This document shows, one piece after another, positions 1,173-19,226 of a stretch of DNA of 28,764 nucleotides (the stretch's first letter is position 1; every line of letters begins with the position of its first letter). The notes beneath the pieces are model-generated. The model did no database searches. It had not been told where the DNA came from and saw only the letters and a program-made list of their open reading frames with translations. The stretch spans positions 1-28,764 of IMG/VR virus record IMGVR_UViG_3300048836_001241; one strand, given 5' to 3'. A program made the position numbers and the translations under genes. The DNA is from a virus.

Positions 1173-3890
1173 TTACCCCAGCAAGTTGATGTTGAAGAAA
1201 GTTTCGCCGTTGTCTCCGACCAGATCGGCGCTGTCGGTGCCAAGGCCGTCGACCCGGACGCGAAGCTCCGCGCGCTCGCCCGCCTCCAGGAAGAAGAACG
1301 CCGAGACCTGCCCGCGCCAGATGCCGGCAGTGTTGATCGCGCCGTTCGGGACCAGGTTTGCCACGGCCCGGTTGATCTGCGTGGTGGCAGGGGCCGCCGC
1401 GTAATGGACGATGCTCAGCTGAGCCAGGGTGACAGAGGCCCCCATGCCGTCCATGCGCACGCTTCCGGTGAAGGCGTAGACCCCAGAGGATGGTGCGGTG
1501 AAGACGCCTGCGCTGACGGTTCCATCGGTGTCGTAGAGGTCGCCCCCGTTGGCGAAGGGGATCACATACTCGGTCGCGTTCCCGGTCACGTTGTTCTGGT
1601 TCGGGCGCCGGCCGGCAAAGCGGGTGGCGGCGTTCATGTTGAGGGTAAGCGGCGATCGGGTCTGCACCTTGTCGACCGGGGCCATGTTGCCGGCGATGAT
1701 ATGGGGCAGTTCCGGCCCGGGCTCTGGGCGCTCGATGCGGATTGCGGTGGGGGAACTCTGGATCAGGTTCGACTGGATCAGCATCCGGCCCGACACTGTG
1801 CCGAACTCGGCTTGCCCGCCGCTAGTGTAGGCGGAAAAGCTGGAGGTGTTGAACCCGGTCAGATCCTTGCGGTTGGGGTTGGCATAAAGGGTCACCACGC
1901 CCGTCGCGACATTGTACTCGGTGTAGGCGATCAGGCCGTTGATCTGGGTCATGCCGCCCACGCCCGAGAAAGTGAGCGCTTCGCGGTTGAAGTTCGGGTT
2001 GCCTGTGCGGGTGAAGGGATGCGACAGCCGCGACGTGCCGACAGCCGCCCAGCTTCCGTTGCCGACAACAGGCTTTTCCAGATAGGCGTCCTCTTCCCAA
2101 AGGGCGAGGGTGTTGGCGTCAATCACCTCGACCTTGACCGGCTTCGGAAAGCCCCCGGCCGCCGTGAAAAAGCCGATGGCCGGGGTGCCGGTGATGGTGC
2201 GACGGTTGCCGCTGACCTGGCCATGGCTCGGGACAGTGATCCTGACCGGCGTCACCGTGCCGTTGATGGCAGTGATCGTGAGTTGCGGGAAGGTGATGGT
2301 GGGGATTGCCGCGCGGGTGATGTTGCTGATCGGCATGGTCGTGTAGTAGGCGCGGTGCTGGATGCCCCGGTCGCCATTGTCGCGCAGGACGTTGCCAAGG
2401 ATGCCCGAGAACAGGCTCTCGGTGTCGCCCTTGTTCCCGACGACAATGCCGCCGTTGTTCCCGTCATACCCATGGTTCAATGCCCACATGACACCGAGCA
2501 GCTTGTTGCCGCCGAAGTTCCCGACGCCGCCGCTTTCGGCGACATAGTTTCCGGCAATCAGGGTATCGGTGCCCTCGTCGCACTGGATGCCTTCGCCGCC
2601 GGATCTCAGAACCGAGTTGCCAAAGCAGAGCGCGGCCGTGCTCTTGCCGGTTGAGATCCCGCCGCCGTCCACGTCCCACAGGTCGCAGAAGAGCGTCCGG
2701 CTGCGGAAACCCTTGACCGCCAGGCCGCCGCTTCTGAACGTCTGGCAGTTCATGATCAGGCTGTAGTCGGACCCCAGCGAGATTGCCGCCTGGGTCAGGC
2801 CGTTGATCCCGTCCCAACCGCCGTCGATCTTGATGTTTGACACCGTGATGAACTCGGGCGTCGGCACGATCGGTCCGGCCGCGATGTCGAATTCGTCCGG
2901 CGACTGGAAGATGACCCCGCTGTTGGCCCGGGTAATGTAGCCCATGCCGTCGGCCGTGTGCGTCGTGCCGGGGGCAAGGATGTCGTCCAGCCCGCCGTTG
3001 ATGGTCCAGTTGCCGTCCCATTTGGCGGTCGGGCGGACCGAGGCGTTCATCCTGGCGATCATCGCGTTGGCGGCGGTCTTGTTCTGCGCTGCAGTGCGGC
3101 CTGATCCGTCCATGCCCACGCCGAACTGGGCGGGGTAGAAGATCGTGCGCTGCAGCTGCGCGACAAAGCCGCCCAGAAGGGTGTGGTCGCCGAATTCGTC
3201 AGGCGTCGCGCCGAACTCGGCCAGCGTGCGGACGCGGTAGGTTGCAGCTCCGCCGTCGCCCGGCGCGAAATAGCCGTTGGTCTGGATGATCTTGCCGCTG
3301 GCCAGGAACTGGACGGGCAGGGCCTTCATGTCGGCGACGGTCTGGCTGTCGTTCAGCGTCCCGGCAAAGGAGGCGGCGATGGCGGCCGATGCTGCGGCGG
3401 CAAGGGCGCTGGCCTGGGCGCTGGAGATCTCGGTCACCGTCGGGCCGCTGACCACGCGGCTTCCCTGGCGGACAGGCACGGTGTCATCATCCCAGATGAA
3501 GGGCGGCAGCTCGCCCCGGATGCGGATCGCGCCCTCGGTGACGGTGCGCACCTCCTGCACGGTCTGGACGGTACGGTCGAGCTGCGCCTCGAGGCCCTTT
3601 TCGCGCTCGCCCAGCACGCCAAGCCAACCCTGCTCGTCCGGGGTCACGCGGTCGATGAAGAGGGTGCGGCCGGCATGGGTGGCGGCGGCGGCGGGGGTCA
3701 GGAACAGGCTGCCGACGGTGTCGCTTTCGGTCGGGGTCAGGGTGAAATCGGACGGGTTGAGCTGCGTCTGCACATCGTCGATCACCACGAAGGCCCGGAT
3801 CGCGCCCAGGGCGTAGGGGTGGGTAATGCCATAGGGGCCGATGCCCGCCACGGTATATTCGGGTGTCACGACCCAGGCTTCGACAGTCAT
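1173..3890 (-). CDS. Tailspike: T7 gp17-like anchor, beta-helix, C-terminal jelly-roll
   Basis: This 905-residue receptor-binding protein starts with a T7 gp17-type virion anchor (about residues 1-115, with NPSDFTLTPTES and the RVTPDEQGWLG segment). An Ala-rich helix follows near 155-178. The middle (about 190-560) is rich in short Gly/Asn/Ser beta turns (INGGLDDILAPGT, SNIKIDGGWDGING, GNKGDTESLF), typical of a right-handed pectate-lyase-like beta-helix that often cleaves surface polysaccharide. The end (about 770-905) has the pattern SGVYAFTGSVRM ... ERAELRVRVDG of C1q/TNF-like trimeric beta-sandwiches. A strong ribosome binding site GGAGG (3897-3901) lies 6 nt before the ATG, which overlaps the upstream stop as ATGA. 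Enzymatic residues could not be assigned by eye. Confidence 0.85.
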   Translation of the reverse strand: MTVEAWVVTPEYTVAGIGPYGITHPYALGAIRAFVVIDDVQTQLNPSDFTLTPTESDTVGSLFLTPAAAATHAGRTLFIDRVTPDEQGWLGVLGEREKGLEAQLDRTVQTVQEVRTVTEGAIRIRGELPPFIWDDDTVPVRQGSRVVSGPTVTEISSAQASALAAAASAAIAASFAGTLNDSQTVADMKALPVQFLASGKIIQTNGYFAPGDGGAATYRVRTLAEFGATPDEFGDHTLLGGFVAQLQRTIFYPAQFGVGMDGSGRTAAQNKTAANAMIARMNASVRPTAKWDGNWTINGGLDDILAPGTTHTADGMGYITRANSGVIFQSPDEFDIAAGPIVPTPEFITVSNIKIDGGWDGINGLTQAAISLGSDYSLIMNCQTFRSGGLAVKGFRSRTLFCDLWDVDGGGISTGKSTAALCFGNSVLRSGGEGIQCDEGTDTLIAGNYVAESGGVGNFGGNKLLGVMWALNHGYDGNNGGIVVGNKGDTESLFSGILGNVLRDNGDRGIQHRAYYTTMPISNITRAAIPTITFPQLTITAINGTVTPVRITVPSHGQVSGNRRTITGTPAIGFFTAAGGFPKPVKVEVIDANTLALWEEDAYLEKPVVGNGSWAAVGTSRLSHPFTRTGNPNFNREALTFSGVGGMTQINGLIAYTEYNVATGVVTLYANPNRKDLTGFNTSSFSAYTSGGQAEFGTVSGRMLIQSNLIQSSPTAIRIERPEPGPELPHIIAGNMAPVDKVQTRSPLTLNMNAATRFAGRRPNQNNVTGNATEYVIPFANGGDLYDTDGTVSAGVFTAPSSGVYAFTGSVRMDGMGASVTLAQLSIVHYAAAPATTQINRAVANLVPNGAINTAGIWRGQVSAFFFLEAGERAELRVRVDGLGTDSADLVGDNGETFFNINLLG

Positions 3891-6433
3891 TGATCACCTC
3901 CAAGGGATCCGAGGGCATTGGAAAGATCGGGCAGGCGGGCGTCGCCGCCGGTGCCGCGTACGGGGATGAAGGGCTGGGTGCCGTAGTCCTTGGCCATCTT
4001 CTTGACCTTGCGGCGGAAGATCAGCTCGGCCTCGGGATCGAGGAAGGCCTGCAGGTTGTCAGCGACCAGGCGGCTGTAGGCGGTGCGAACGTACCAGGCG
4101 GACGAAAAGAACGGGGTGTTGCTGCGCACAAGGCCCGCGAGGTCGCGGCCGATCAGCGTGTCCTCGCCGTTCACCGCGCGGGTGATGTTGCTGGCGATGG
4201 GGCCGATGATGTCACCGGCAAGGCCGGCGACCGGGCCGGCCAGCGTCTCGCCGATGCCACCGCCCACGCGACTGGTTTCGGACTGGAAGAAATCCCCGAA
4301 GATGCCCAGGCCGCCGCCCTGGAAGAGGGCCGCCATCCAGAACTTGCCGGTGTCCATCGGGCGGGGATCGTTGCCCTTGACCAGCTCTTTCAGCTGGATC
4401 GCAAGGGCGCCGGTTACCAGAAGCATGCCACTGACCTTGGCGGCATAGCTCCAGCGGTTCATGCCCCAGCTGTCGGCCTCGGCAAAGCGGCGGTACTGGT
4501 TCAGCATCAGCGACAGGCTGAAGGACTTGTAGGCGGTCGAGCTGCGGGCAAGCTCGCCCAGGAAGGTGCCGGGGGCAGACGTGCCCTGCAACATGGCCTT
4601 GCCCTCAAGGCTGGCGCTGGGGATGGCCATTTCCAGCTGCTCCTGGATCGCCATCTGCCAGCGCATGGCCAGCCCCTCGGCCTCGACCCGTGGCATGGCG
4701 GTCTGGGTTTCCAGCCAGTAATGCGGGGTCATGAAGTCCGGGCCGTCCAGCGCGGGGCCGCCGTTGCCGCCCGGCGCGCTTTGCGCCTTGGGGTAGAAGC
4801 GGGTGGCGGGATCCCGCATCAGGTCCCAGTCGGCGGCGGTGATGCCGCGCCGTTCCAGCATCAGCCGCGTGCGCGGGTCGATCTCGGCAAAGCCCTTGCC
4901 GGCCATGTCGGCCAGGTGACCCGCGAATTCCATCTGGAAGGCGATCTTGCGCATGTCGGTGACAAAGCTCAGCCCGGTGGCGCGCAGGGTGAAGCTGGCC
5001 AGGCGATCGGGCAGGCCGGTGCCGAAGGTCTTCCCGAAATAGCGCGCCATGGTGCTGCCGCTGTCGGCCAGCGTCTCGGCGACATAGCCCATGCGGGCGG
5101 CGGTTTCGCGGGTGGCCTGGGATGCCATCAGCTGCACCGACCGGCTCATCACGTTCGTGCCCGACAGGCCGATGGTGGTTGCGGCGGCGCTGATCGTGGC
5201 GGCGTCGGTGACCGAGGACACGACCGCGCTGCCCAGCTGGATGCCGACAAGGGTCGACCGGACGCCGCCGAAGAACCGCGCCCAGCCGACGTGATGGGGG
5301 ATGTTGGCGCTGCCGTTCTGGTGGGCCAGCATGGCCATGGCGGTCTTGCCGGCGCGGGTCACCCGCTCGGCCAGCTTGCCGTCACCGCGCTCGGCCGCCA
5401 GCTTCTCGGCCACCTGCGTGGCGTATTGCAGCCCGGTGCGCGGGTTGGGCCCAAGGACCCGCATCAGCGCCACGTCGCCGGCCAGGCCGTGCAGCCCGCC
5501 GATCATGGCGCTGAAGGGGTCAGACGTGCCGAACTCGCGGTTGTAGTCGATCCAGGACGATCCGTCCTTGAAGTGCAGGACGCGGTGTTCGGCCCGCTGG
5601 TTGGCAAGCGCGCGCCCGCCCATCGACAGGCTGGGGTCACGGTCATCCCAGCCGCGCGTGATGATCCCGTCATAGACGTCCTGCAGGAAGGTCTGCACGT
5701 CGGCCCGGGCCGGGATGCTGCCCTTGGCGGCAAAGGGCTTGCCGGTCGCGTTGTCGATGATCCGGTCCCAGGCCAGAAGCGGGGTGATCTTCTCGGCCCA
5801 GGCGTCAAAGCCCTTCAGCCGCAGCTGGCCCGCGTCGTGGCTATGGCTCACGCCGAAGTCAGCCAGGTCGCCAATGTCGCCGCCGTAGCTGTTGAAGGCC
5901 CGGCGCATGCGCTGCTGCTGGGTGCGGATCGTGGCGGCCAGGGTCTTGGCCAGGGCGTCGCCGGTCGCCTCGTCATGCAGCTCGCGGATCAGGTTTTCCA
6001 GAAGGCGCGCGTTGCGGGAATTCGACAGGACGTTGGTGCCGGTCTCCTTCAGCACCTGCTCGATCGCGCCGTTGATCGTGCTGACATAGGCCTCGGTCAG
6101 GGACCGGACGCTCTCGGCCCTCGATCCGGCATTGGGGTTGTATTCCAGAAGGCCCTTGATCGCGGCGGCGGGATCTTTGGCGGTCAGGATCGTCTGCCGC
6201 AGCCGCGCCATGGCCTGCAGCTGGTTCAGCACCACATGGCGGCGGCGGGCGGTCTTCGCCTTGTTGGCCTCCTTCAGGTCGGCGGCGGCGCGGGCGCGGG
6301 CCTGGGCCAGTGGCATGGCCGTGCGGTAGCGGGCGACCAGCTGGTCGAACTCGGCAATCATCGCGATGCCCCGGGCGCGGTCCAGCTCGCCAAAGTCGAT
6401 CGCGCGCTGCAGGCAGTCGGCCATGTTGGTCAC
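3887..6433 (-). CDS. Large internal virion/polyvalent protein with LPD38-like C-terminus
   Basis: This 848-residue, mainly helical protein has an Ala/Arg-rich helical N-terminus (ARARAAADLKEANKAKTARR) and no enzymatic motif that I recognise. The last ~80 residues (from about 771: SNTPFFSSAWYVRTAYSRLV, then NLQAFLDP and RRKVKKM) match the pattern I know from the C-terminal LPD38 domain of large phage 'polyvalent' proteins (NTP..N-LWYTRAA..., ...P-GYLRRME-R-KK). Two amphipathic or hydrophobic stretches near 660-735 could be membrane-active. It follows the 1416-aa polyvalent gene with TGAGTG spacing, so the two may act together as injected core proteins. The start is GTG at 6433: GGAGG (6441-6445) is 7 nt upstream of the GTG but 16 nt from the in-frame ATG at 6424. 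Confidence 0.75.
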   Translation of the reverse strand: MTNMADCLQRAIDFGELDRARGIAMIAEFDQLVARYRTAMPLAQARARAAADLKEANKAKTARRRHVVLNQLQAMARLRQTILTAKDPAAAIKGLLEYNPNAGSRAESVRSLTEAYVSTINGAIEQVLKETGTNVLSNSRNARLLENLIRELHDEATGDALAKTLAATIRTQQQRMRRAFNSYGGDIGDLADFGVSHSHDAGQLRLKGFDAWAEKITPLLAWDRIIDNATGKPFAAKGSIPARADVQTFLQDVYDGIITRGWDDRDPSLSMGGRALANQRAEHRVLHFKDGSSWIDYNREFGTSDPFSAMIGGLHGLAGDVALMRVLGPNPRTGLQYATQVAEKLAAERGDGKLAERVTRAGKTAMAMLAHQNGSANIPHHVGWARFFGGVRSTLVGIQLGSAVVSSVTDAATISAAATTIGLSGTNVMSRSVQLMASQATRETAARMGYVAETLADSGSTMARYFGKTFGTGLPDRLASFTLRATGLSFVTDMRKIAFQMEFAGHLADMAGKGFAEIDPRTRLMLERRGITAADWDLMRDPATRFYPKAQSAPGGNGGPALDGPDFMTPHYWLETQTAMPRVEAEGLAMRWQMAIQEQLEMAIPSASLEGKAMLQGTSAPGTFLGELARSSTAYKSFSLSLMLNQYRRFAEADSWGMNRWSYAAKVSGMLLVTGALAIQLKELVKGNDPRPMDTGKFWMAALFQGGGLGIFGDFFQSETSRVGGGIGETLAGPVAGLAGDIIGPIASNITRAVNGEDTLIGRDLAGLVRSNTPFFSSAWYVRTAYSRLVADNLQAFLDPEAELIFRRKVKKMAKDYGTQPFIPVRGTGGDARLPDLSNALGSLGGDQ

Positions 6434-9400
6434 TCAAGCACCTCCATTGGGGGCGACGGCACAGGCCTGCGCCACGGCGTCGGCCGTGCGGTCAGCGTCG
6501 ATGTCGTCCAGGATGTCGCCGGCGCGCACGCGGGTGCCGTCGGGCAGGTCGATGTCCAGCGCCGCAAACTCGCCCAGGTCGCTGCGCGCCCGGTCGATGG
6601 CAAGGGCGGCGGTGTCGATGGGGGCCAGCGCTTCGTCAGCGGGGCGAGAAAGGGGCATGTCGGGGTTGGCGGCGGGAATGGTGCCCGGCGGGGTGTCAGA
6701 GGTGCCTTGGCGGCCCGCTCCTGAAGTGGGCGGTTTGCTGTTGAAATCGTCGACCCGACGCGCCATATTCAGGACGTCCTCTGCGGGGCGGATAGCCTTC
6801 GGCGAGGTGCCGGCATCGGCAACTGCGGCCGCGTCTACCCATTTGACCGCAGAGGATCCTTCCAGGAATTCGACGGCTTCGATCGTGTAAAGCGGGTTTG
6901 CCCGACCTTCGCGCGCATCCTGCTTGACGGTCATCTTGACCAGCGCAGGGCGTCCGTCCGGTGACTTCATCGGCACGAAATAGCGGTGCACGGCTGCGAT
7001 GTTGGGGTTCCCTGCCCGGTCCGGCTTGGACCAGCCCAACCGCGAGGCGGCAAAGAGCGTGTCGATGTTTGCAATGGCGCGGGTGTGCAGCTCCGGAGAC
7101 GTCGACTTGGCGACTGCAGACTGGCTCAACATCTTGTCCAGCGCGTTGCGTGAAACGGTGGCCTCGATCCCCGTTGCCTCGTTGCGAAGCGCTCGGCCCT
7201 GAAACTCCTTTACCGCCTCCCGTGCCTCGGCGAAGGTGCCTGCTTGCCGCGACACGGTGGGTTCGCCCAGCGACGGCCCCCGCAGCTCTGCCTCGATCTC
7301 GGCATGCACCGCCTCGGCCGCCGGGCTCTGTGCGCCCTGGTCGAAGTCGTCGCCCTGCCGGTCGGCCACGGCCTCGACCGGGGCTTCCTGGCCGGGGCGG
7401 GCGAAGGTGCGGGCGGTGCCGAAGTCTTCGGGCAGGTCCTTGAAGATCTCGGGGTCGATCGTGCGCAGGATGTCACGCGGACCGGGGGCGTCGAACATCC
7501 CGTCGCCGTCGGTCGGGACCTTGCGCGCCTCGTCGGCATAGCGCTTCAGGAAGCTGACGATCTTGTCGGTGGGGGTCGACCGGCCGTCGCGCCAGAAAAC
7601 CTTGACCAGGCGGACGGTCAGGGGCGAGATGGCACCTTCAAGCATGTCGGGGCTGTTGATGATGTCGCTGATGGCCTGGCCGATCCCGCCCTTGCCTTTG
7701 GCGGCCATTTCGCGCGCGTCGTCGATCAGGCGCACGGCGTCCTGGACGAAAAGGCTGATGTCCATTTCGGGCGGGACAAGCCCGGCCTCGATGTCGGACT
7801 TCAGGGCGGCCCAGTTGGGGGCGGCCTTGGCCAGCGCCTGGATCAGCGGGATCAGGTCGTCCTCGGTGATCTCGGTGTACTTGGCCAGGATGTCCGGGGC
7901 ATCCCAGGCGCGCGCGAACATCAGCTCTTGCAGGGCGCGCTCGCCGGATCCGTTCAGCTGGCCGCCCTTGCCGAAGAAGGCATTGCGCTCGCTGCGCGAC
8001 AGGGTGGCCATGGCGGCGCGGGCGAAGTCGGCATTGTCCGGGTGCGACAGGCGAAGGCCGGGCTTCAGACGGGCCAGCGTGGTGGAGGTCAGGCCGCCCC
8101 GATAGGCCAGCGCCATTTCGGTGGCGTTCATCCGGGCGATGCCGCTGTCCTGGGCGTCGACGACAAAGCCCTTGCGGGCGGTTTCGTCAAACTCGGTCTT
8201 GCGGCGGGCGATCAGGACCGGGCGTTCCATGCCTGCAGGCACCTCGAAACCGGCGGCCTCGATGGCACCGCGATACGCCTGGGCGCGGTCGGGGTGCAGC
8301 TCATAGGCGCGACCGATGGCCATGGTGCGGCCGTTGCCGCTTTCGATCATGTTGTCGGGCCCGACGATCGGCGTCCCGGTGGCGGCATTGGGCGAGGGCA
8401 TGAGCTGCGCCGGGTCCAGCCGGGCAGCGGTGGCGGCGACCCATTCGTCGCTGTTGATCCGGCTGCGGTCGCGTGGCTGGTAGTCGCCGCTGGCGCGGAT
8501 CAGCGACCGGTAGTCGACGACCTCGTAGTCGACGTCGATCCGCTTGTCGTCGCCATAGGCGATCTGGTTCTGCCCGGTGTAACCGCGCGAGGTGGGGCCC
8601 ATGGCGGGGGCCGGGCCGTCCGTACTGCCGGGGGTCCAGTCGCCGCGGGGGCCCTTGTAGCCCTGCCAAGCGCCGGTGCCCTGGCGGATGAAGATCTGCT
8701 GGGCCAGATACTCCTGGAACTCGGGCGTCATCACCTCGTCGCCCCGAAGGTTCAGGTCACGCTTCAGCATGGCCAGGGTGTCGCCGACGATCTGGTAGCC
8801 GCCCATGGGCGTGGAGACGCCGTTCTCCTTGTCGGGACGGTTGGCGGCGACCCATTGGCCGTAGGGGCCTTCAGGGCGCTGGAACTCCAGCCACTGGTCG
8901 ACCGTCATCTTGCTCGGCTTGATGTTGCTCCACTTGCCGCCGGGGCGGTTGGAGAAGCCGAAGAGCGCGTCGAAGTCGCCGCCGCTTTCGGTTGCAAGGA
9001 TCCCGCGCCGGACGGGATCGGTCCAGCCTGCAGGGGCGTCGGGGCCGATCTCGGGCAGGGTGACCGTCACGCCGGACCGCGCGGCCGGCGCGTATGTGGC
9101 ACCGGCCCGGCCGGCCTCGATGGCCTTGGCGAAATAGGGGTCAAGCGTTTTCGACGTGGTGTCCGGCCCCCAGCTGGAGACGCTGCCGCCGCCGACGTGC
9201 ACGCCCCAGGAATAGTGGCCGATGCCGGGATAGACCTTGGCAGCCTCATACAGGAAGCGGGCGTAAAGCTCCGGGTCCTCGGTCGGGGTGACGGGTCTGC
9301 CGTTGCGGGTCAGGACAACGTCGCCGGTGTGAGCGACGCCGTTCGCGTCGACGTCGTGGCGGGTGGACCCGATCGGGCGGTTGCTGCCCGGGATGCGGCC

Positions 9401-10684
9401 CGTGCGGTCCTGCCCACCCGAGACGATCATGACGCCGATGTCATCGCCCAGGGGGGCGACGGCCCCGCGCAAGTCGGCCTTGAAACTGTCACTGACGGGC
9501 AGGTTGCGGGTCTTGGACTGGTAGGCCTCGACGACCTTGACCGTGTCGGGGGACCGGGTCTTGCCCAGGATGTCGCCCATGGTGCCGGGGGCAGGCTGGG
9601 CCTCGGCGCGCGCGCCGCCTTCGACCCTGCCGCCCAGCCGTTCCTGCGGGGTCTGGTCGCCGCGCAGCGCGGCTTCGGCGGCCTCGACCCCGGCCTCGTG
9701 GTCGATCCGGTCAACGCCCGGGGGGATGGTCTCGACCAGGCTGGCGCGGCGGGCTTCGGCCCGGGCCTGCAGGGCACGGGCGCCTTTGCCCAGGCCGATG
9801 ATCGCGGCGGAGAAGCCGCCGCCGAAAAGCGCACCCAGGGCAATGCGGCTTCCTGCGCTTGGGTCGGGCAGGTCCAGCTCTTCGGCGACGCGGTATTCCT
9901 TGGGCAGGACGGCCGCTTCGCCAGCCGCGCCCAGGACGGCCTCACCAACGATTGTGCGCCAAGCAGATCCGCTGATCCCCAAGGGCAGAAGCATCAGGCT
10001 GGTTTCGTCAGTGATGGCCCGCGCGGCGGATCCGAAGAATTCGGCCACTCCTCCGCCGGGCTGATCAAGGACTGCCTGCGCCTCGTCCAGATCAGCGCGG
10101 CGGCCCTCGTCGACCTGGCGGTTGAAGTCCTCGATCGACAGGGGCAGGCCCGCCCAGACGCGCGCCACGTCGGGCGACGCGGCCGCCTGGCGACCGGCCT
10201 CGGCGGTGATCAGCTCTTCCATGCTGGCCCAGCCTCGGCGGATGCGGTCCTGCCAGACACGGTCGCGGCCGCCCTGGTCGAGGCGGTTCCACATCTCTTC
10301 GACCAGCGACTGGCGGCGGCTGGTGGTGTCGTTCCAGGCGTCGGTCTTGATCGTTTCCGCACGCCAAGCCGCACCGATCACGTCCCAGGTTCCTGCATCA
10401 AAGGACGGCGGGGGTTGCACCTCGATCTGCGACGGGGGCAGGCCAAGCTCTGCGTCGATCTCGGCGCGCGTCTTGGGCGGGGGTCCGGCCGGAACTGCGG
10501 GGGGCGGTGCTGCCGGCTGGGCTGCGGCCGGGTCGGGCGGCGGGACGGCGACGGGGGCAGTCGGCGCGCCGGGCGGCGGGGCAATGCCGGGGCTGAACGG
10601 GTCGGTGTAGAAGCCGGCTGGCCCCATGTCCGCCTTGGTGCGGTTGCGCTGATCCTGTTTCAGCTGATCCTGAAGCTCGGTCAT
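6434..10684 (-). CDS. Polyvalent virion protein: M15-like peptidase + lysozyme-like + DdrB/ParB-like + LPD/RelE-like domains
   Basis: This 1416-residue protein has several domains in order. A Pro/Ala-rich disordered start covers 30-70 and helices cover 95-345. An M15-like peptidase region follows at about 370-525, with STRHD (His443), GDVV (Asp455) and VHVGGG (His496) as likely zinc ligands. A lysozyme/transglycosylase-like region spans about 555-680, with ATESGG (Glu566 as the catalytic candidate) and STPMGGYQIV (624-633). A DdrB-like ParB superfamily domain spans about 715-865 (QPRDRSR at 736-742, IVGPDNMIESGNGR at 773-786). A helical region follows. Near 1170-1275 (VSRNALDKML, VHRYFVPM, LVKMTVKQDA) there is a domain resembling the LPD3/PBECR RelE-like folds of polyvalent proteins. 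Such proteins are packaged and enter the cell with the DNA. Position among the core proteins supports this. Domain names are by motif recognition, not search. Confidence 0.8.
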   Translation of the reverse strand: MTELQDQLKQDQRNRTKADMGPAGFYTDPFSPGIAPPPGAPTAPVAVPPPDPAAAQPAAPPPAVPAGPPPKTRAEIDAELGLPPSQIEVQPPPSFDAGTWDVIGAAWRAETIKTDAWNDTTSRRQSLVEEMWNRLDQGGRDRVWQDRIRRGWASMEELITAEAGRQAAASPDVARVWAGLPLSIEDFNRQVDEGRRADLDEAQAVLDQPGGGVAEFFGSAARAITDETSLMLLPLGISGSAWRTIVGEAVLGAAGEAAVLPKEYRVAEELDLPDPSAGSRIALGALFGGGFSAAIIGLGKGARALQARAEARRASLVETIPPGVDRIDHEAGVEAAEAALRGDQTPQERLGGRVEGGARAEAQPAPGTMGDILGKTRSPDTVKVVEAYQSKTRNLPVSDSFKADLRGAVAPLGDDIGVMIVSGGQDRTGRIPGSNRPIGSTRHDVDANGVAHTGDVVLTRNGRPVTPTEDPELYARFLYEAAKVYPGIGHYSWGVHVGGGSVSSWGPDTTSKTLDPYFAKAIEAGRAGATYAPAARSGVTVTLPEIGPDAPAGWTDPVRRGILATESGGDFDALFGFSNRPGGKWSNIKPSKMTVDQWLEFQRPEGPYGQWVAANRPDKENGVSTPMGGYQIVGDTLAMLKRDLNLRGDEVMTPEFQEYLAQQIFIRQGTGAWQGYKGPRGDWTPGSTDGPAPAMGPTSRGYTGQNQIAYGDDKRIDVDYEVVDYRSLIRASGDYQPRDRSRINSDEWVAATAARLDPAQLMPSPNAATGTPIVGPDNMIESGNGRTMAIGRAYELHPDRAQAYRGAIEAAGFEVPAGMERPVLIARRKTEFDETARKGFVVDAQDSGIARMNATEMALAYRGGLTSTTLARLKPGLRLSHPDNADFARAAMATLSRSERNAFFGKGGQLNGSGERALQELMFARAWDAPDILAKYTEITEDDLIPLIQALAKAAPNWAALKSDIEAGLVPPEMDISLFVQDAVRLIDDAREMAAKGKGGIGQAISDIINSPDMLEGAISPLTVRLVKVFWRDGRSTPTDKIVSFLKRYADEARKVPTDGDGMFDAPGPRDILRTIDPEIFKDLPEDFGTARTFARPGQEAPVEAVADRQGDDFDQGAQSPAAEAVHAEIEAELRGPSLGEPTVSRQAGTFAEAREAVKEFQGRALRNEATGIEATVSRNALDKMLSQSAVAKSTSPELHTRAIANIDTLFAASRLGWSKPDRAGNPNIAAVHRYFVPMKSPDGRPALVKMTVKQDAREGRANPLYTIEAVEFLEGSSAVKWVDAAAVADAGTSPKAIRPAEDVLNMARRVDDFNSKPPTSGAGRQGTSDTPPGTIPAANPDMPLSRPADEALAPIDTAALAIDRARSDLGEFAALDIDLPDGTRVRAGDILDDIDADRTADAVAQACAVAPNGGA

Positions 10685-12855
10685 TGGCGGGCCCCGCGCA
10701 TCAGGTCCTTCAGGCGGAAGCGATAGGCCCCGCCGCCGCCGGCCTCGGGCACAGCGTAGGTGCGGCCGTTCTGTTCATAGACCAGTTCGTAGACGTCGGT
10801 TTCGCCCACGCGGCGGGGGGTCAGCATGTCCCACATCTGCGTGGGGTTGGAACCAAGGTCAGGGACGCCGCCATACACGCTGGCGGCCTTGAACGGGGCA
10901 AGGCGCGCGGTGGCGGTGGGGGCGGATTTTAGGGCGGCGTCAGGTGCCTGAAACCCTTCCGGTGCAGCATAGACCCACTCGCCCTGGCCACGGCTCGTAT
11001 CCCAGACACCCCCGGCCAGGCGGTTGCCGATCGCGTCCCACTCGCTTTCGACCTGCGCGACCGAGACACCGACGGGCAGCACGGTCAGGCCGCCATTGAT
11101 CTCCTGCAGGCCGCCAACGGTCAGGCCGCCGTTTCGGTCCGGCTGCGCGCCAAGCAGGCGCTGCACCGACTGCTGATAAAGTTCATAGGCCGCGCCGTCG
11201 GCAATCCAGCCGTCGCTTCCAGTGGTCTCGCCGTCGATGCCGGCCGCGCTGTCGGCGTACAACGCCAGGGCGGCTTCCATGATCTCGGCCTTGACGGCGG
11301 GGGCATCGTCGAAGGCTCCGCCCGTCATGGCGTCGAAGGCGAGGATCTGCTCCTTCCGGCTGGGCGGGACGATGGTCTTGCCGTCCAGCTTCTGCTGGCC
11401 GCGCAGGATGCTTTCCGTCAGGGCGGGATCCTGCGTCATGCCCAGAACCTTCAGCGCACGGCGGCTGACCGGGTCAGCTTCAAGGGCGGTCAGGACCTCG
11501 CCCGCGTTGCCGCCTGTTGCGCTCTGGATGGCTGCCAATAGCGCGACTTTGGGTCCGGCCTCCGCGCCGGGGGCGAGGACGGCCTGCAGCTCCGCCTTCT
11601 GCGCTTTGGTGAAGATCGCGCTCTGGTCGCTATAGCCCTTCTGGCGCTGGAAGGCGTCGAAGCTTAGGCTTTCCTGCAGGGCGGCGGCAAAGGCCTCGGG
11701 GTTGGCGGGGTCGAAGGCCGGGATCTCGGGCGCGGGCAGGCCGGATGCTGCAAGCGCAGCCTTGGGGTCGGTGGCAAGCGCGGTGGCCTTCTTGTCGCGC
11801 ATCTCGATCAGGACGGGCAGACGCTCGTTTTCCCAGGGCTCGACGATGGTGCGGTCCTTCTCGGCCGCGATCAGTGCGTCAATCTGGGCAGGGGTCATCA
11901 GGTCAAGGTTGGGGATCTCCTGCCCCAGCTTCACGCGCGCCAGGGCACGGGGGTACTTGGGGTTAGCCTTGACCTCATCGGGGGCGTTCAGGACAAAGTC
12001 GACGTCGGCGACCTTGCGGCCGGCGACGGTCAGCTCGCCGATCGTGTCGAGGCGGTTGCCGATTTCGTCCTGCCGCTTCTTGGCTTCCGCCTCGCCTGCC
12101 GTAGCCGCCGCCGCCGCGCGGCGGTCCAGCTCGGCCTGGGCGGTGGCGATGCGCTGCGCCTTGGCTTCCGGGCCGATGGCGTCATAGGTCCCGGCCTGCA
12201 GCGCCTCTTTGGCGGCGGCGGGATCCTGGTCGATGGCCGTGATCAGCCGGGCGTTCATCACCTCGGCCTCAAGCGCCTGCTTTTCGATAACAGCCTTGTC
12301 GGGCAGGATCAGGCCGGCGGCGACCTGTGCGTCGATCCGGGCATAGCCTTCCTGCAGCAAGGTCTCCATCGTCACCGGGTCGGCGGTGGCGGCGGTGGTG
12401 GTCAGGTCGGCACGGGTTTCAAGCCAATCGGCGGTCTGCTGGCTTTGGTGCAGGGCGATGTTGCGCTCGCCCAGGGCCAGCGCCTGACGCTGGCCAAGGT
12501 CCATCGCATGCAGGCCCAGGGCGTCAGCCTCGTCGGGCCGCCACATCGGGCGACCGTTGGCGTCCTTCTGGTTGATGTACTGGTCGCGGATCCGCGCCTC
12601 GACCTGCGGCCATTCGGCGTCGATCGCGGCTGGGTCGCCCAGCTGGGACACGCGCTGGTATTCCTGCCCCAGCGCCTTGGTCATCTCGATCTTGGCGCGG
12701 CTCATGCGGACGGCGCGCTGTTCCTGGTCGATCTGCCCCATCTTCTGGGCGACGGCGGCCCCGGCCTGCGAAATGAAGCCGCCGATGTCGGGCGTCTCGA
12801 CGCGGATGTCGGCGGACCGGCCGGCGACGATGCCCCCTTCAGGAACCGTGATCAT
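10681..12855 (-). CDS. Internal virion (core) protein, 724 aa, helical
   Basis: This 724-residue protein is largely alpha-helical, rich in Ala, Gln and Glu (QAGAAVAQKMGQIDQEQRA; a strongly charged coiled-coil stretch near 225-255 with AEAKKRQDEIGNRL) and has no signal peptide or TM segment. The size and its place directly between a gp14-like protein and the giant polyvalent protein match the T7 gp15-type ejection protein, part of the channel that carries phage DNA across the envelope. I see no sequence motif that proves homology to gp15. Both ends overlap neighbours by ATGA (12852-12855 and 10681-10684), so expression should be tightly coupled. AAAGG lies about 9 nt before the ATG. The alternative is an unrelated structural protein with the same position. 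Confidence 0.75.
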   Translation of the reverse strand: MITVPEGGIVAGRSADIRVETPDIGGFISQAGAAVAQKMGQIDQEQRAVRMSRAKIEMTKALGQEYQRVSQLGDPAAIDAEWPQVEARIRDQYINQKDANGRPMWRPDEADALGLHAMDLGQRQALALGERNIALHQSQQTADWLETRADLTTTAATADPVTMETLLQEGYARIDAQVAAGLILPDKAVIEKQALEAEVMNARLITAIDQDPAAAKEALQAGTYDAIGPEAKAQRIATAQAELDRRAAAAATAGEAEAKKRQDEIGNRLDTIGELTVAGRKVADVDFVLNAPDEVKANPKYPRALARVKLGQEIPNLDLMTPAQIDALIAAEKDRTIVEPWENERLPVLIEMRDKKATALATDPKAALAASGLPAPEIPAFDPANPEAFAAALQESLSFDAFQRQKGYSDQSAIFTKAQKAELQAVLAPGAEAGPKVALLAAIQSATGGNAGEVLTALEADPVSRRALKVLGMTQDPALTESILRGQQKLDGKTIVPPSRKEQILAFDAMTGGAFDDAPAVKAEIMEAALALYADSAAGIDGETTGSDGWIADGAAYELYQQSVQRLLGAQPDRNGGLTVGGLQEINGGLTVLPVGVSVAQVESEWDAIGNRLAGGVWDTSRGQGEWVYAAPEGFQAPDAALKSAPTATARLAPFKAASVYGGVPDLGSNPTQMWDMLTPRRVGETDVYELVYEQNGRTYAVPEAGGGGAYRFRLKDLMRGARQ

Positions 12856-13406
12856 GCCAGCTGCCTTTCCCGAAAGAGGCCGGGCCAGACCTCCGGGCCC
12901 ATGGTCAGGAAGTCGCTGGCCGCGCCGATCGTGCCCTTCAGAAGGCCGGCGCTGGCGCTGGCGCTGGCGATGGCGGCCTGACTGGTCAGCTCGGCATTGC
13001 GCGCCTGGCCGGTGGACCGGATGGCCTGGCTGTCAAAGCTCAGCTCCTGTGCGGCGGTCTGGCCCAGGTAGACGGCGGTCGGGCTGGAAAGATCGACGCC
13101 GCGCGCCAGAAGCTCGGCCCCCTGCTGGCGGATCATGCCTTCCATCTTGCCGCGCTGGCGCTGGTCCTGCGTGGCGGTCAGCTGCGCCTCTGTCTTGGCC
13201 TGGTCGCGCAGGGCGGCTTCCTGCGCCTTGCCCTGCCCGTAGGCCTGCACGCCGGAATAAAGGCTGCCCGCGATGGTGGCGACGGTGGCAAGGGTCTGCA
13301 GCGCCCCGACCGCGCCGGCGCCGGCTGCTGCTGCACCGGCACCCGCGGCTGCTGCACCGCCGCCAAGCAATCCCGGCACCAGGGCTCCCAATCCAATGAC
13401 ACACAT
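12852..13406 (-). CDS. Internal virion protein, T7 gp14-like
   Basis: This 184-residue protein begins with a Gly/Ala-rich hydrophobic stretch (about residues 3-50). An amphipathic Gln/Ala helix follows (GQGKAQEAALRDQAKTEAQL), then the segment GAELLARGVDLSSPTAVYLG near 103-122 and a second Ala/Ser-rich hydrophobic stretch (AIASASASAGLLKGTIGAA). This layout, including the 'ARGVDxSSPTAVYLG' segment, is typical of the virion core protein T7 gp14 family, an ejected protein that inserts into the outer membrane during DNA entry. It sits right after the tail nozzle gene (TGATG one-base overlap) and before the 724-aa core protein (ATGA overlap). Confidence 0.8.
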   Translation of the reverse strand: MCVIGLGALVPGLLGGGAAAAGAGAAAAGAGAVGALQTLATVATIAGSLYSGVQAYGQGKAQEAALRDQAKTEAQLTATQDQRQRGKMEGMIRQQGAELLARGVDLSSPTAVYLGQTAAQELSFDSQAIRSTGQARNAELTSQAAIASASASAGLLKGTIGAASDFLTMGPEVWPGLFRERQLA

Positions 13407-15631
13407 CAGCGTCCAGCCTCCTGCACGATCGGGGTGACGGCGGTCACGGTCATCGGAGCGCCGCCAAAGGGGTAGAAGCGGATGGCCAGCTCGGTCGCGT
13501 GGCCGCTGGGTTCGGGGATCTGCAGGACGCCGGAATAGGCGTCCTCGCCCAGGGTGGCCGCCACCGGCTGCGGGACCATCAGGCGCTTGTCGCCAAGGCG
13601 CGGGGCCTGGGCGAAGTCGCGCTCCACGATCTGGATGTAGCCCTGCGCCGTGTTGTGCAGCCCGACGCCGAACTGGGCATGCAGCCGTTTCTTGCGGCCA
13701 AGGGTGTTGCCGTCGGCGGCCGACGCCTGCACGTCCAGCGTCTCGACATAGTGGGTGTCGTCGAAAAGGCCGATATAGGCGCGGGTGGCCTGGACCGGCA
13801 GGGTGATCGCGCCGCCCGGCGGGACGTCGATCGGGCCGAAGGCACCGACGTCGGTCCAGACGTAGACGGTTTCGCCGGCCAGGTGCGGCACGGAAAAGCT
13901 GTTGCTTCCGGGCTCTTGCGCAAAGCGGCCGGCAGCGAAGAAATGGCAGGCGTCCTTGATCGGCGTGGTCCCGGTCAAGAGGCCGAAGATCGGGGTCATC
14001 GTCTCGACGAAGCGCCTGGTCACCCCGTTGATCGTGCGGCGCACGATCATCATGACCTCGTCGCTGGTGCCGGTTGCATTGGGCGTGACGGCCAAGGCCT
14101 CGCAGAAGCCGCCGGCAAGGGGAACGGTGGCCCAGCCCAGGACTTCTTCGGACTGGTCGAATATCATGACAGCCAGGTCACCGGTGGCGCGGCGGATCCA
14201 TGCCATCGGCTCGGGCGTCGCCTGCCAGACGATCTGCTCGAACTGTTCGGCCCCGAGATGCTGGCTGGCGCGGCTCAGGGTGATCGGGCGGTTGGCGTCG
14301 GCCTCGAAGCTGTAGCTGATCATCACGACGCGGCGGCGGTCGCGGCTGATGAACATCGGGTTGCCCCCGGGCGCGATCGGGCGCGAGGTGTGGCTGCCGA
14401 AGGACGAGTTGTAGGTGAAGGTCGCGGTGGTGGGCCCGATCACCTGGGCGCGGTTGTCGGCACGGGTGGAGTATTCCTCGCCCAGGGCGAAGATGTGCAG
14501 GCCCGTCGCACCCCGGCGGAGGTTCAGGATCCGGTTGACCGTGTTGTCGCCCGCAATGGCATAGGCAAAGCTGCTGTCTGCCTCGACGCCCGGCGCGAAG
14601 TCACCGAAGTCGCCTGCCGTGGAAAACCAGATGGTGCGCGGCTCGGTCGGGGTGGCGGCAAGGCAAAGGCGCTGATCGAAGATCTCGATGGCCGACGGAT
14701 AGCCGTAGCGGTCCGACCAGGCCCCCTCTGACCAGCGGTAGGTCGGATCGTTTACGACCGCCTCGGGCAGGCGCTTCAGGACCTGGGCGGTGGCGGATGT
14801 GCCGCTGGCGACGGCGGTGATCCGCACGACGCCGGTGTCGTCGCTGATGAAGGTCCAGCGGGTGGGCTTGTTGTCGACCAGTTCCTGACCGACATCATGG
14901 ATCGGCGGGTTGGTCCCGGCATTGGTCCCGGCCGCCAGCTGATAGACGTTGCGGCCATAGCGGCGGCGGTCCCCGACGCTCAGCGCCTCGTTGGACGTCC
15001 AAAGGGCGACGGCGGTGTTGTCGGTGGGCTTCAGCTCCATCAGGCTGCCGACATGGCTGGCCGTGAACAGGCTGCCCCCGGCGGCCGTCAGGGTAACGGT
15101 GCCGATCTCGGCGCTGGCCTGCACGGTCCTGGCCTTGTTCAGGTTCTGCACCCGGAAGGGGCCGGTGTTGGGGTCGAAGTCGGCGATTGTCCAGTTGTCC
15201 AGCGCAAAGCGGGACAGGACCTGAATGGGACGAAGCCCGTCCGCCAGGTAGATCACGTCGGCAGACTGCACCCACTGCAGCTGGCCAAGGGACGCTGTGG
15301 GGTAAGGCGTGACAAGCTCGTAGGGCGCGTCCGCCCCGTCAAGGACCGGCTGGCCATAGCGCCAGACGCGCATCCGAAGGTTGGTGAACTCCAGCACCAC
15401 GGCGTCGTTCACCGCAAAGGTGAAGGGCAGAAGGATGCCTTGGGCGTTGCTGCGGGTCGATCCCAGGTGAAACGTGCCCGGCGCGCGGGTGAAGCCGCCC
15501 TGGGCCAGGGGCAGGAAGCCGCGGCACGCGGCAAGTCCGGTCTGGAAGCGCTGGTAGTCGAAACGGCGGTGCAGAAGCGGGTCGATCTCGCCGGACCCGA
15601 AGCTTACCTGCGGTGGGCTGGTTCGGGTCAT
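13406..15631 (-). CDS. Tail nozzle / tail tubular protein B (T7 gp12-like)
   Basis: This 741-residue, beta-rich protein starts MTRTSPPQVSFGSGEIDP. The N-terminus 'F.sGEisP.l..R.D...y..gl..c.NF.p...Gg..rRpGt' is the recognised opening of podovirus tail nozzle proteins: compare GEIDPLLHRRFDYQRF, CRGFLPLAQGGFTRAPG, RMRVWRYGQPV and IFDQRLCLAATP. It should form the hexameric tip of the short tail through which DNA leaves. Its length is close to that of T7 gp12 (~790). The ATG at 15631 lies in an ATGA overlap with the adaptor gene. The frame is open to 15967, but that part is Arg/His/Pro-rich shadow over the adaptor gene and is not included. Confidence 0.9.
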   Translation of the reverse strand: MTRTSPPQVSFGSGEIDPLLHRRFDYQRFQTGLAACRGFLPLAQGGFTRAPGTFHLGSTRSNAQGILLPFTFAVNDAVVLEFTNLRMRVWRYGQPVLDGADAPYELVTPYPTASLGQLQWVQSADVIYLADGLRPIQVLSRFALDNWTIADFDPNTGPFRVQNLNKARTVQASAEIGTVTLTAAGGSLFTASHVGSLMELKPTDNTAVALWTSNEALSVGDRRRYGRNVYQLAAGTNAGTNPPIHDVGQELVDNKPTRWTFISDDTGVVRITAVASGTSATAQVLKRLPEAVVNDPTYRWSEGAWSDRYGYPSAIEIFDQRLCLAATPTEPRTIWFSTAGDFGDFAPGVEADSSFAYAIAGDNTVNRILNLRRGATGLHIFALGEEYSTRADNRAQVIGPTTATFTYNSSFGSHTSRPIAPGGNPMFISRDRRRVVMISYSFEADANRPITLSRASQHLGAEQFEQIVWQATPEPMAWIRRATGDLAVMIFDQSEEVLGWATVPLAGGFCEALAVTPNATGTSDEVMMIVRRTINGVTRRFVETMTPIFGLLTGTTPIKDACHFFAAGRFAQEPGSNSFSVPHLAGETVYVWTDVGAFGPIDVPPGGAITLPVQATRAYIGLFDDTHYVETLDVQASAADGNTLGRKKRLHAQFGVGLHNTAQGYIQIVERDFAQAPRLGDKRLMVPQPVAATLGEDAYSGVLQIPEPSGHATELAIRFYPFGGAPMTVTAVTPIVQEAGR

Positions 15632-16326
15632 CGCATGGCCTCCAGTGCCCAGTCGCCTTCGCTGCCGTAGGTCAGGCCGCCGCCTTGCGCTTCGGACCAG
15701 GTGGCTCGGCTGGCCTGCAGGCCGTCTTCGCGCATCGCCTGCTTCAGGGTGGCAAGCGCGGCGTCCTCGATTCCCTGCGGATCGAAGCCCGACCCGGCAA
15801 AGCGGCCGCCAAGACGCAGGGCGATATGCAGGGCAAGGGCGGTGCGGAAGGTGGCGGGCAGCACCTCCTCGCGCGTGACGCGGGCGGTGTAGCGCAGGGT
15901 GACCGCGGCCGGGGCATCGTGGCGCATGATCTGCCCGTCGATCCGCCAGCGCGCGGTGTCGGGCCAAAGCTGACGAGGCCGGATCAGGGTGTCGGGCAGA
16001 AGCACGCAGACCGTCAGCCGATCATCCGACGCGACGCCTGGTGGCAGGGGCGATGGCTGCAGGATGATGACGGTGGACGCAAAGCTCCAGTCGCAGGCGG
16101 CCAGAAGGTCGTCGATCGCAATGTCGAAGGCCTCGGTCAGCGCGGGCAGAAGCTCGGACCCCGGATCGTGCCGCGCGACGGGTGCCAGGCGCATGAAGCG
16201 CAGCGCCTGGCCGATGACCGGGGAGGTCGCCAGGACCACTGGCGGGGCCCAGTCATAGGGCGGCACAAGAAGGCCCGTGTCGAAGAGCGCGTCATCGAAG
16301 ATGGCTGGGTCAAAGAGGACGGTCAT
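15628..16326 (-). CDS. Tail adaptor A-like protein (T7 gp11/TtpA fold), copy 1
   Basis: This 232-residue protein has the TtpA-type pattern: an N-terminal helix ALRFMRLAP (41-49), DWSFAST (79-85) after a run of helices, and the C-terminal helical hairpin RYTARVTREEVLPATFRTAL (145-164) followed by RLGGRF. Such proteins form the dodecameric ring (gatekeeper/adaptor) between portal and nozzle. It has a ~30-residue N-terminal extension with the short repeat FDPAIFDDALFDT that the paralogue at 18624-19226 lacks. It overlaps the nozzle gene by ATGA and starts 2 nt after the tail fibre stop. It is clearly paralogous to the other adaptor; which of the two is the true gatekeeper cannot be told from sequence alone. 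Confidence 0.8.
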   Translation of the reverse strand: MTVLFDPAIFDDALFDTGLLVPPYDWAPPVVLATSPVIGQALRFMRLAPVARHDPGSELLPALTEAFDIAIDDLLAACDWSFASTVIILQPSPLPPGVASDDRLTVCVLLPDTLIRPRQLWPDTARWRIDGQIMRHDAPAAVTLRYTARVTREEVLPATFRTALALHIALRLGGRFAGSGFDPQGIEDAALATLKQAMREDGLQASRATWSEAQGGGLTYGSEGDWALEAMR

Positions 16327-18623: not shown

Positions 18624-19226
18624 CTACCAGGTGGCCGACTGCGACCAGTCGCCGCTGTCGGCCAGGTCGTTGTCGTACCTCGCGCCGCTGGCGCTGCGGC
18701 TGTCCTGTTTCTTGGCTTGGGCAAGCTCCATCTCGAAGCGGCGGTCCAGCTCGCGCAGCTTGGTCGCGGTGCCCAGCCAGCGCGGGCCCAGAAGCGTGGC
18801 AAGGCGCAAGGCGACGGCAGTCTGGAAGGCGGCCGGCAGGATCGCCTCATTCGTCACCTCGGCGGTGTAGCGGATCCGCAAGGGGGCGGGTGCGTCGGCG
18901 CGCAGGCCGTCGCGGTCACGCCGCCACAGGGTGCCCGGCTCTCCGACCTCCAACAGGCGCACCAGGTCGCCGGGGACTTGGTAGAAATAGGCAAGCTCGG
19001 GATCTTCGGCCACGGTCGGGGGCAGTGTCGCCTCGGGCAGGTTGGCGATGGTCGAGGCAAAGGACCAGTCGGCGCGGGCCAGGCATTCGCGCAGCGCGTT
19101 CGGATACTGTTCCGTTGCGGACCGGGCCTGTTCGGTATCGTCGGCAAAGCTTGAGATCGGGCTCAGCTCCATGAAGCGCCAGGCCTGGGCAACGATGGTC
19201 GATGTGGCGATGGGGCTGGGCGGCAT
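18624..19226 (-). CDS. Tail adaptor A-like protein (T7 gp11/TtpA fold), copy 2
   Basis: This 200-residue protein shows the same signature as the gene at 15628-16326: AWRFMELSP (15-23), DWSFAST (53-59), then DAPAPLRIRYTAEV and TNEAILPAAFQTAVAL (125-140) followed by LLGPRWLG. It lacks the FDPAIFDD extension and is closer to the usual length of gatekeeper proteins (T7 gp11 is 196 residues), so this copy is the better candidate for the canonical portal-proximal ring. Its C-terminus (SASGARYDNDLADSGDWSQS) is a typical exposed tail. GGAAG lies 8 nt before the ATG. It follows a 74-nt hairpin-bearing spacer after the decoration-protein gene. Confidence 0.85.
   Translation of the reverse strand: MPPSPIATSTIVAQAWRFMELSPISSFADDTEQARSATEQYPNALRECLARADWSFASTIANLPEATLPPTVAEDPELAYFYQVPGDLVRLLEVGEPGTLWRRDRDGLRADAPAPLRIRYTAEVTNEAILPAAFQTAVALRLATLLGPRWLGTATKLRELDRRFEMELAQAKKQDSRSASGARYDNDLADSGDWSQSATW

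Follow-up and report, generated by a model that had tools for sequence, protein, structure and literature searches.

In this study, we analysed a virus record of 28,764 bases (IMG/VR record IMGVR_UViG_3300048836_001241; this whole stretch is called the window) and focused on the gene at 6434-10684, whose product of 1416 amino acids (aa) is here named P0001.

The gp16-position gene and its cassette

The P0001 frame comprises 1416 codons on the minus strand with an ATG start and no internal stop codon, and the gene sits in a late operon, close-packed against both neighbours. An identical protein is encoded on a 38-kb IMG/VR contig (L001; L-numbers denote related loci from viral or bacterial contigs). 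The cassette of the window encodes proteins of 184 aa (phrog_418) and 724 aa, P0001, and a protein of 848 aa (phrog_684), an order that corresponds to gp14, gp15, gp16 and gp17 in Alcaligenes phage Piluca and in epsilon15. Lying between the gp15-position and the gp17-like gene, the P0001 gene occupies the epsilon15-type gp16 slot (Table 1). Relatives of P0001 were found in genomes of Paracoccus, Seohaeicola and Tabrizicola (Rhodobacteraceae). A phmmer search of the whole protein against the PDB and a search against NCBIfam gave no matches.

Table 1. Features of P0001 and of the neighbouring cassette genes (window coordinates; HMM, hidden Markov model; ORF, open reading frame)
Feature	Position	Strand	Basis
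gp16-position polyvalent ejection protein P0001, 1416 aa	6434..10684	-	ORF; synteny with epsilon15/Piluca
Constant N-terminal domain, residues about 92-340	9665..10411	-	HMM built from relatives
Slot 1a, predicted M15/hedgehog-fold domain, residues 384-528, triad His443/Asp455/His496	9101..9535	-	AlphaFold and VIA-align; invariant triad; absent from L002-L004
Slot 1b, lysozyme-like domain, residues 549-680, Glu566 and TPMGGYQIVG	8645..9040	-	182 relatives; annotated lysozymes; invariant Glu and TPMG..Q
Constant core with ddrB-ParB (PF18763, residues 712-829 = 8198-8551)	7433..8593	-	Pfam E 5e-34; conserved to residue about 1084
Slot 2 cargo LPD3, residues 1153-1261	6902..7228	-	Pfam PF18798 E 4e-18; swapped for PBECR1, RelA/SpoT-like or nothing in relatives
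Constant C-terminal tail, residues 1371-1414, with only cysteine Cys1408 (codon 6461-6463)	6443..6574	-	tail HMM; sole cysteine
epsilon15 gp17-like pilot protein, 848 aa, sole cysteine Cys7 (codon 6413-6415)	3887..6433	-	phrog_684 E 6e-145; BLASTP to epsilon15 gp17 E 2e-37
epsilon15 gp15-position protein, 724 aa, no cysteine	10681..12855	-	synteny; weak BLASTP to epsilon15 gp15, E 0.011
gp14-like internal virion protein, 184 aa, sole cysteine at residue 2	12852..13406	-	phrog_418 E 3e-14

Constant parts and exchange slots

P0001 and its relatives in viral and bacterial contigs have an N-terminal domain, a long ddrB core and a C-terminal tail in common, with the core absent in L008, L056 and L073. 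The ddrB-ParB domain itself had been recognised by an earlier sequence-only reading of this DNA and scores far over the Pfam cutoff (117.5 bits, gathering score 27.6), with QPRDR and ESGNGR invariant in six sequences. The N-terminal domain, the long conserved region behind ddrB and the tail (about 1371-1416) are constant parts that this reading did not contain. No other ORF of the loci matched the tail HMM; the tail is therefore not a label that marks virion proteins in general for packaging.

Between these constant parts lie two exchange slots. Slot 1, between the N-terminal domain and ddrB, holds wall hydrolases in seven arrangements: lysozyme-like alone, SLT, Phage_lysozyme2 (PF18013), RNNNPGNI-type, VanY with PF18013, M15-like with lysozyme-like, and M15-like with SLT. 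Slot 2, between the ddrB core and the tail, is mostly empty (about 50-140 residues) and otherwise carries LPD3, PBECR1 or a RelA/SpoT-like domain. Two wall-acting domains in one chain, as proposed by the sequence-only reading, are supported for P0001 and recur in L037 (VanY and Phage_lysozyme2), L014 (M15-like and SLT) and L055 (M15-like and lysozyme-like). The order M15-like, lysozyme-like, ddrB, LPD3 was found in this virus only among the relatives compared. The suggestion of a new polyvalent architecture thus holds for the exact order, but polyvalent proteins are an established class and P0001 shows one combination out of a set of interchangeable parts, not a fixed new design. In L064, it is the preceding gp15-position gene that carries the lysozyme-like domain (L064:3743-6322), and therefore the module moves between ejection proteins. 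A small separate endolysin gene (phrog_465) is located at 454-876 of the window, at the cassette end; the slot-1 hydrolases are therefore probably not the lysis enzyme. A 1626-aa frame in L081 was considered as a gp15-gp16 fusion and rejected, since gp15 there lies in another frame.

For the M15-like domain, Pfam gave no M15 match in P0001 even at E 10, nor in L055, and a fold search was required because the domain profile produced only chance matches against PDB sequences. An AlphaFold model calculated from the region aligned with its relatives from viruses reached a pLDDT (predicted local distance difference test score) of mostly 86-96 across the domain. Plain Foldseek returned weak E-values (best 0.11, hedgehog), which was resolved by VIA-align: all of the best 39 structural matches belonged to M15 peptidases or hedgehog proteins. 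The zinc DD-peptidase 1lbu ranked first (Z 7.1, root-mean-square deviation 3.8, 109 residues), followed by hedgehog proteins, LysECD7, Ply500, MepA, LysB4, ChiX, VanX and EndoT5. The first unrelated chain appeared at rank 40, where Z falls to 2.6. An M15/hedgehog fold is in this way shown by modelling for the predicted domain, in agreement with the M15-like region of the sequence-only reading, which had also placed His443, Asp455, His496 and Glu566 at their correct positions. The His/Asp/His triad is invariant in an alignment of P0001 with seven relatives (8 sequences; 30-73% identity). The His-Asp spacing of P0001 is five residues longer than in plain M15 proteins, and L055, with a plain HxxGxAAD...HxD motif, bridges the two.

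In viral contigs, 182 relatives of the lysozyme-like region were found; matching proteins of named phages (of Ochrobactrum, Stappia and Lentibacter) are partly annotated as lysozyme, muramidase or endolysin. Glu566 and TPMG..Q are invariant across 39 sequences, in line with the lysozyme-like assignment. Matches of its profile to the PDB were weak (E 0.0013 and 1), as were pairwise matches to lambda R (E 0.0004-0.0008), and the AlphaFold model has low confidence over this part.

The C-terminal domain had been read as resembling the LPD3/PBECR RelE-fold group. LPD3 was confirmed by Pfam (66.1 bits, gathering score 27), and a RelE-type/BECR fold is only suggested by an AlphaFold model (pLDDT 73), whose nearest structures were the CdiA toxin 6cp9 (CdiA-CT; Z 5.3), BrnT (4.9) and the Salmonella toxin 7vd7 (4.7), all below the safe level. 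A single-sequence scan of viral contigs with LPD3 detected the same virus only. The exchange in slot 2 can be followed in close pairs: L060 and L061 are about 92% identical, and L060 has 142 additional residues with a PBECR1 domain, which is over the Pfam cutoff, exactly in slot 2; between L014 and L015, slot 2 is the main difference. The RelA/SpoT-like slot-2 domain matches Tas1 (PDB 6ox6, E 1.6e-10), a secreted (p)ppApp synthetase. Such Tas1-related domains, for which Pfam made no call, were observed in slot 2 of alphaproteobacterial phage ejection proteins at L024:10668-11186 and L032:9701-10222 and in L056, L074 and L083.

Cysteine pattern and comparison with known systems

The only cysteine of P0001 is Cys1408, eight residues before the end of the 1416-aa chain. 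For comparison, 50 gp16-position proteins of 390-1397 aa were collected, which form 40 clusters at 90% identity and 20 at 50% and include those of phages of Vibrio, Salmonella, Escherichia, Yersinia, Pseudomonas, Acinetobacter, Stenotrophomonas and Pelagibacter; in relatives, the start was set to the last Met before the N-terminal domain. In all 50, the final 15 residues contain one cysteine and the rest of the chain contains none (45,469 aa in total), and some of those with the C-terminal cysteine have only about 400 aa and no ddrB core. A cysteine in the last 14 residues was present in one of 56 neighbouring coding sequences. The tail HMM is too weak for distant gp16-position proteins, where only the cysteine and its position carry over.

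The gp17-like partners mirror this pattern at their start. In named phages, 15 of 15 have exactly one cysteine, at residue 4-12, and in the loci of relatives all 32 partner frames, several of which are cut at the locus end or have an uncertain start, carry a cysteine near the start (L040 has another at 115), as against 2 of 37 controls. Cys7 of the window protein is one of 25 invariant columns in 12 sequences that are 21-33% identical to it. Other structural proteins of these phages contain about 1% cysteine (89 in 8683), gp15-like proteins have none in most cases, and no cysteine occurs in gp15 and gp16 of T7 (2065 aa) or in gp7, gp20 and gp16 of P22 (1309 aa; loci L156, L157 and L160 for the two phages). 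In two genome surveys, distant prophages with both cysteines were obtained (L177, L178, L180, L181, L183, L184, L185, L188-L191), one of which has a further cysteine in gp17 (L181). Both cysteines are kept in L185 and L190, where more than 300 bases separate the gp16 stop codon from the opening of the gp17 frame. No gp16-gp17 fusion was found in the loci examined.

One gp17-like gene without the N-terminal cysteine was observed next to a neighbour that is not gp16-like (L179:5115-7700). Joint loss of the cysteines is not decisive for a pairing, because this is the only candidate and because gp17-like genes of two further loci (L186 and L192) carry the cysteine with no gp16 found nearby. The gp14-like proteins of this virus (12852-13406), T7 (L156), epsilon15 (L141), Piluca (L012) and YeP4 (L145) start with Met-Cys as their sole cysteine, which the Vibrio relatives lack. 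A limited search of the open literature, which is no proof of absence, yielded no paper on point about cysteines or disulfides in ejection proteins.

Published polyvalent proteins carry ddrB-ParB, lysozyme, DD-peptidase, PBECR, RelA/SpoT and LPD domains (Iyer et al. 2017, PMC5512222), and an exchange of hydrolase domains from one ejection protein to another is likewise on record (PMC8954989); neither source, in its accessible parts, mentions slots combined with a constant tail or the cysteine pattern. Among the former, the ddrB-ParB and lysozyme proteins of Acinetobacter prophages in particular resemble P0001 in that ddrB-ParB is fused to a wall hydrolase in a late virion context, and in Helicobacter prophages LPD3, PBECR and RelA/SpoT are known alongside ddrB-ParB, as in the P0001 family (PMC5512222). 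Compared with the proteins in the accessible part of that source, P0001 is distinguished by two wall-acting domains together with ddrB and LPD3, by fixed slots and by the tail with its conserved cysteine. Piluca gp047 (QYW02396.1, L012) shares the gp16 position, ddrB-ParB and a sole C-terminal cysteine; it carries SLT, lacks the M15-like domain and a slot-2 effector, and is about 29% identical over the ddrB core. L055 (IMG/VR 3300035000_000013) has the N-terminal, M15-like, lysozyme-like and ddrB domains and the tail, but PBECR1-like in place of LPD3 (about 58% identity). The epsilon15 proteins agree with the window in gene order, in the lone-cysteine tail of gp16 and in a gp17 that is homologous to the 848-aa protein with its lone N-terminal cysteine, whereas no hydrolase, ddrB or effector is recognised in epsilon15 gp16 (634 aa), the hydrolase of this phage being annotated in gp15. 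Finally, T7 gp16 is likewise an ejection protein with an N-terminal transglycosylase, but it is a single 1318-aa chain without cysteine and without a ddrB or effector domain.

Two further observations concern the remaining window. A 761-aa gene (16329-18614) is flanked by two similar-looking head-to-tail adaptor-like genes (15628-16326 and 18624-19226), which may represent a duplication. Plus-strand frames lie antisense to the ejection genes at 3863-6724 (953 aa) and 7244-10726 (1160 aa) and are probably a by-product of high G+C codon use.

Possible working, rival explanations and meaning

Several domains of disparate predicted activity in one chain and the late, virion-type gene context support the view that P0001 is a polyvalent protein. 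Its role as an ejection protein of a podovirus, already proposed from the sequence, is backed by the domains, the synteny with epsilon15 and Piluca and the Rhodobacteraceae homologues. Taken together, we place P0001 second among the three long ejection proteins of a podovirus of the epsilon15 type with Rhodobacteraceae-like hosts, read it as a chassis with two exchange slots, and assign a probability of about three in four to identity, modular build and ejection role jointly. P0001 would be packed in the head with its neighbours, as homology and synteny suggest, and on infection would pass through the tail and reach the periplasm. There, the lysozyme-like domain would open the peptidoglycan, perhaps with help from the M15-like one. 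The ddrB core and the slot-2 cargo (LPD3) would enter the cytoplasm with the DNA and could act on nucleic acid or early host defence.

Some results weigh against this reading. P0001 matches epsilon15 gp16 by BLASTP only at E 0.26, and phrog_1145 (epsilon15 gp16) is not among its family matches. For lack of such a link, we speak of a gp16 position and not of a gp16 homologue, and a presumed equivalence of the two proteins rests on gene order and the tail. In addition, the stretches read in L186 and L192 contain no gp16-type neighbour of the gp17-like gene. In M15 peptidases such as EndoT5 and VanX, a catalytic acid lies three positions ahead of the third zinc ligand. At this position before His496, P0001 has Trp and its relatives have no conserved acid; the domain is therefore regarded as an M15-like fold with a conserved metal triad and not as a proven peptidase. 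Of the earlier peptidase claim, fold and triad were retained and the activity is uncertain. The domain could instead be a non-catalytic binding domain of the hedgehog type, leaving only the lysozyme-like domain to cut the wall, in line with the Trp and with top Z-scores common to 1lbu and hedgehog proteins. The invariant triad, the clear VanY domain next to a lysozyme at the same position in L037 and the plain motif of L055 speak against this, and we hold the binding-only role to be possible, with the odds clearly against it. It also seems improbable that slot-2 domains are relics or structural fillers and not effectors: the slot is empty in many relatives, and LPD3 is without known function (PMC5512222), but different toxin-type families, including PBECR1 and the Tas1-like domain, recur at one point.

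Exactly one cysteine is kept at each of two facing ends, which suggests that the two are meant to meet. Cys1408 may pair with Cys7 of the gp17-like partner as a tail-to-head clasp in the oxidising virion or periplasm. Judged from the cysteine pattern, we give such an end-to-end disulfide a chance just short of even. Avoidance of cysteine elsewhere would fit proteins that cross the oxidising periplasm unfolded. The pattern could also belong to an ordinary polyvalent injected protein without special assembly, in which cysteines are avoided and the terminal one has a local role (portal-core docking, metal binding or self-dimerisation). T7 and P22 ejection proteins also avoid cysteine, without a terminal one, and the two gp17-like genes with no gp16 found nearby keep theirs; avoidance, on the other hand, leaves unexplained why one cysteine is kept at both facing ends across phages that share little sequence. 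We consider this explanation a serious one, tentatively and at somewhat less than even odds. A constraint of the DNA at the gene junction (translation coupling or an overlapping signal) is largely refuted and very improbable. The two codons do flank the gp16-gp17 junction, where the genes usually overlap or abut, but both cysteines persist at distances of more than 300 bases in L185, L190 and L073, which argues against an effect of the junction, and cysteine is absent from the rest of both proteins, beyond the reach of a junction signal.

The end-to-end disulfide can be carried one step further. In epsilon15-type phages, a long T7-gp16-like chain might have been split into two proteins, which the disulfide between the sole end cysteines would re-join in the virion or periplasm, so that they leave the head as one chain; the reducing cytoplasm would reopen it and free the half with ddrB and the exchangeable effector. 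The T7 gp16 family (phrog_342) matches short gp16-type proteins of L147, L150 and L154 at about 214-437 and one gp17-type protein (L154) at 1053-1117, with no match to P0001 itself, and hhalign adds weak matches in colinear order (299-351 and 794-868 of T7 gp16). These matches fit a split of one long chain into two without proving it, and the scenario as a whole appears unlikely at present. If true, the bond would hold the two halves together until the cytoplasm is reached and open there.

The strict cysteine pattern gives a direct handle on the question of how podovirus ejection proteins exit the head in sequence and come together across the envelope. The slot map likewise offers a way to find injected podovirus effectors, by reading between the ddrB core and the cysteine tail.

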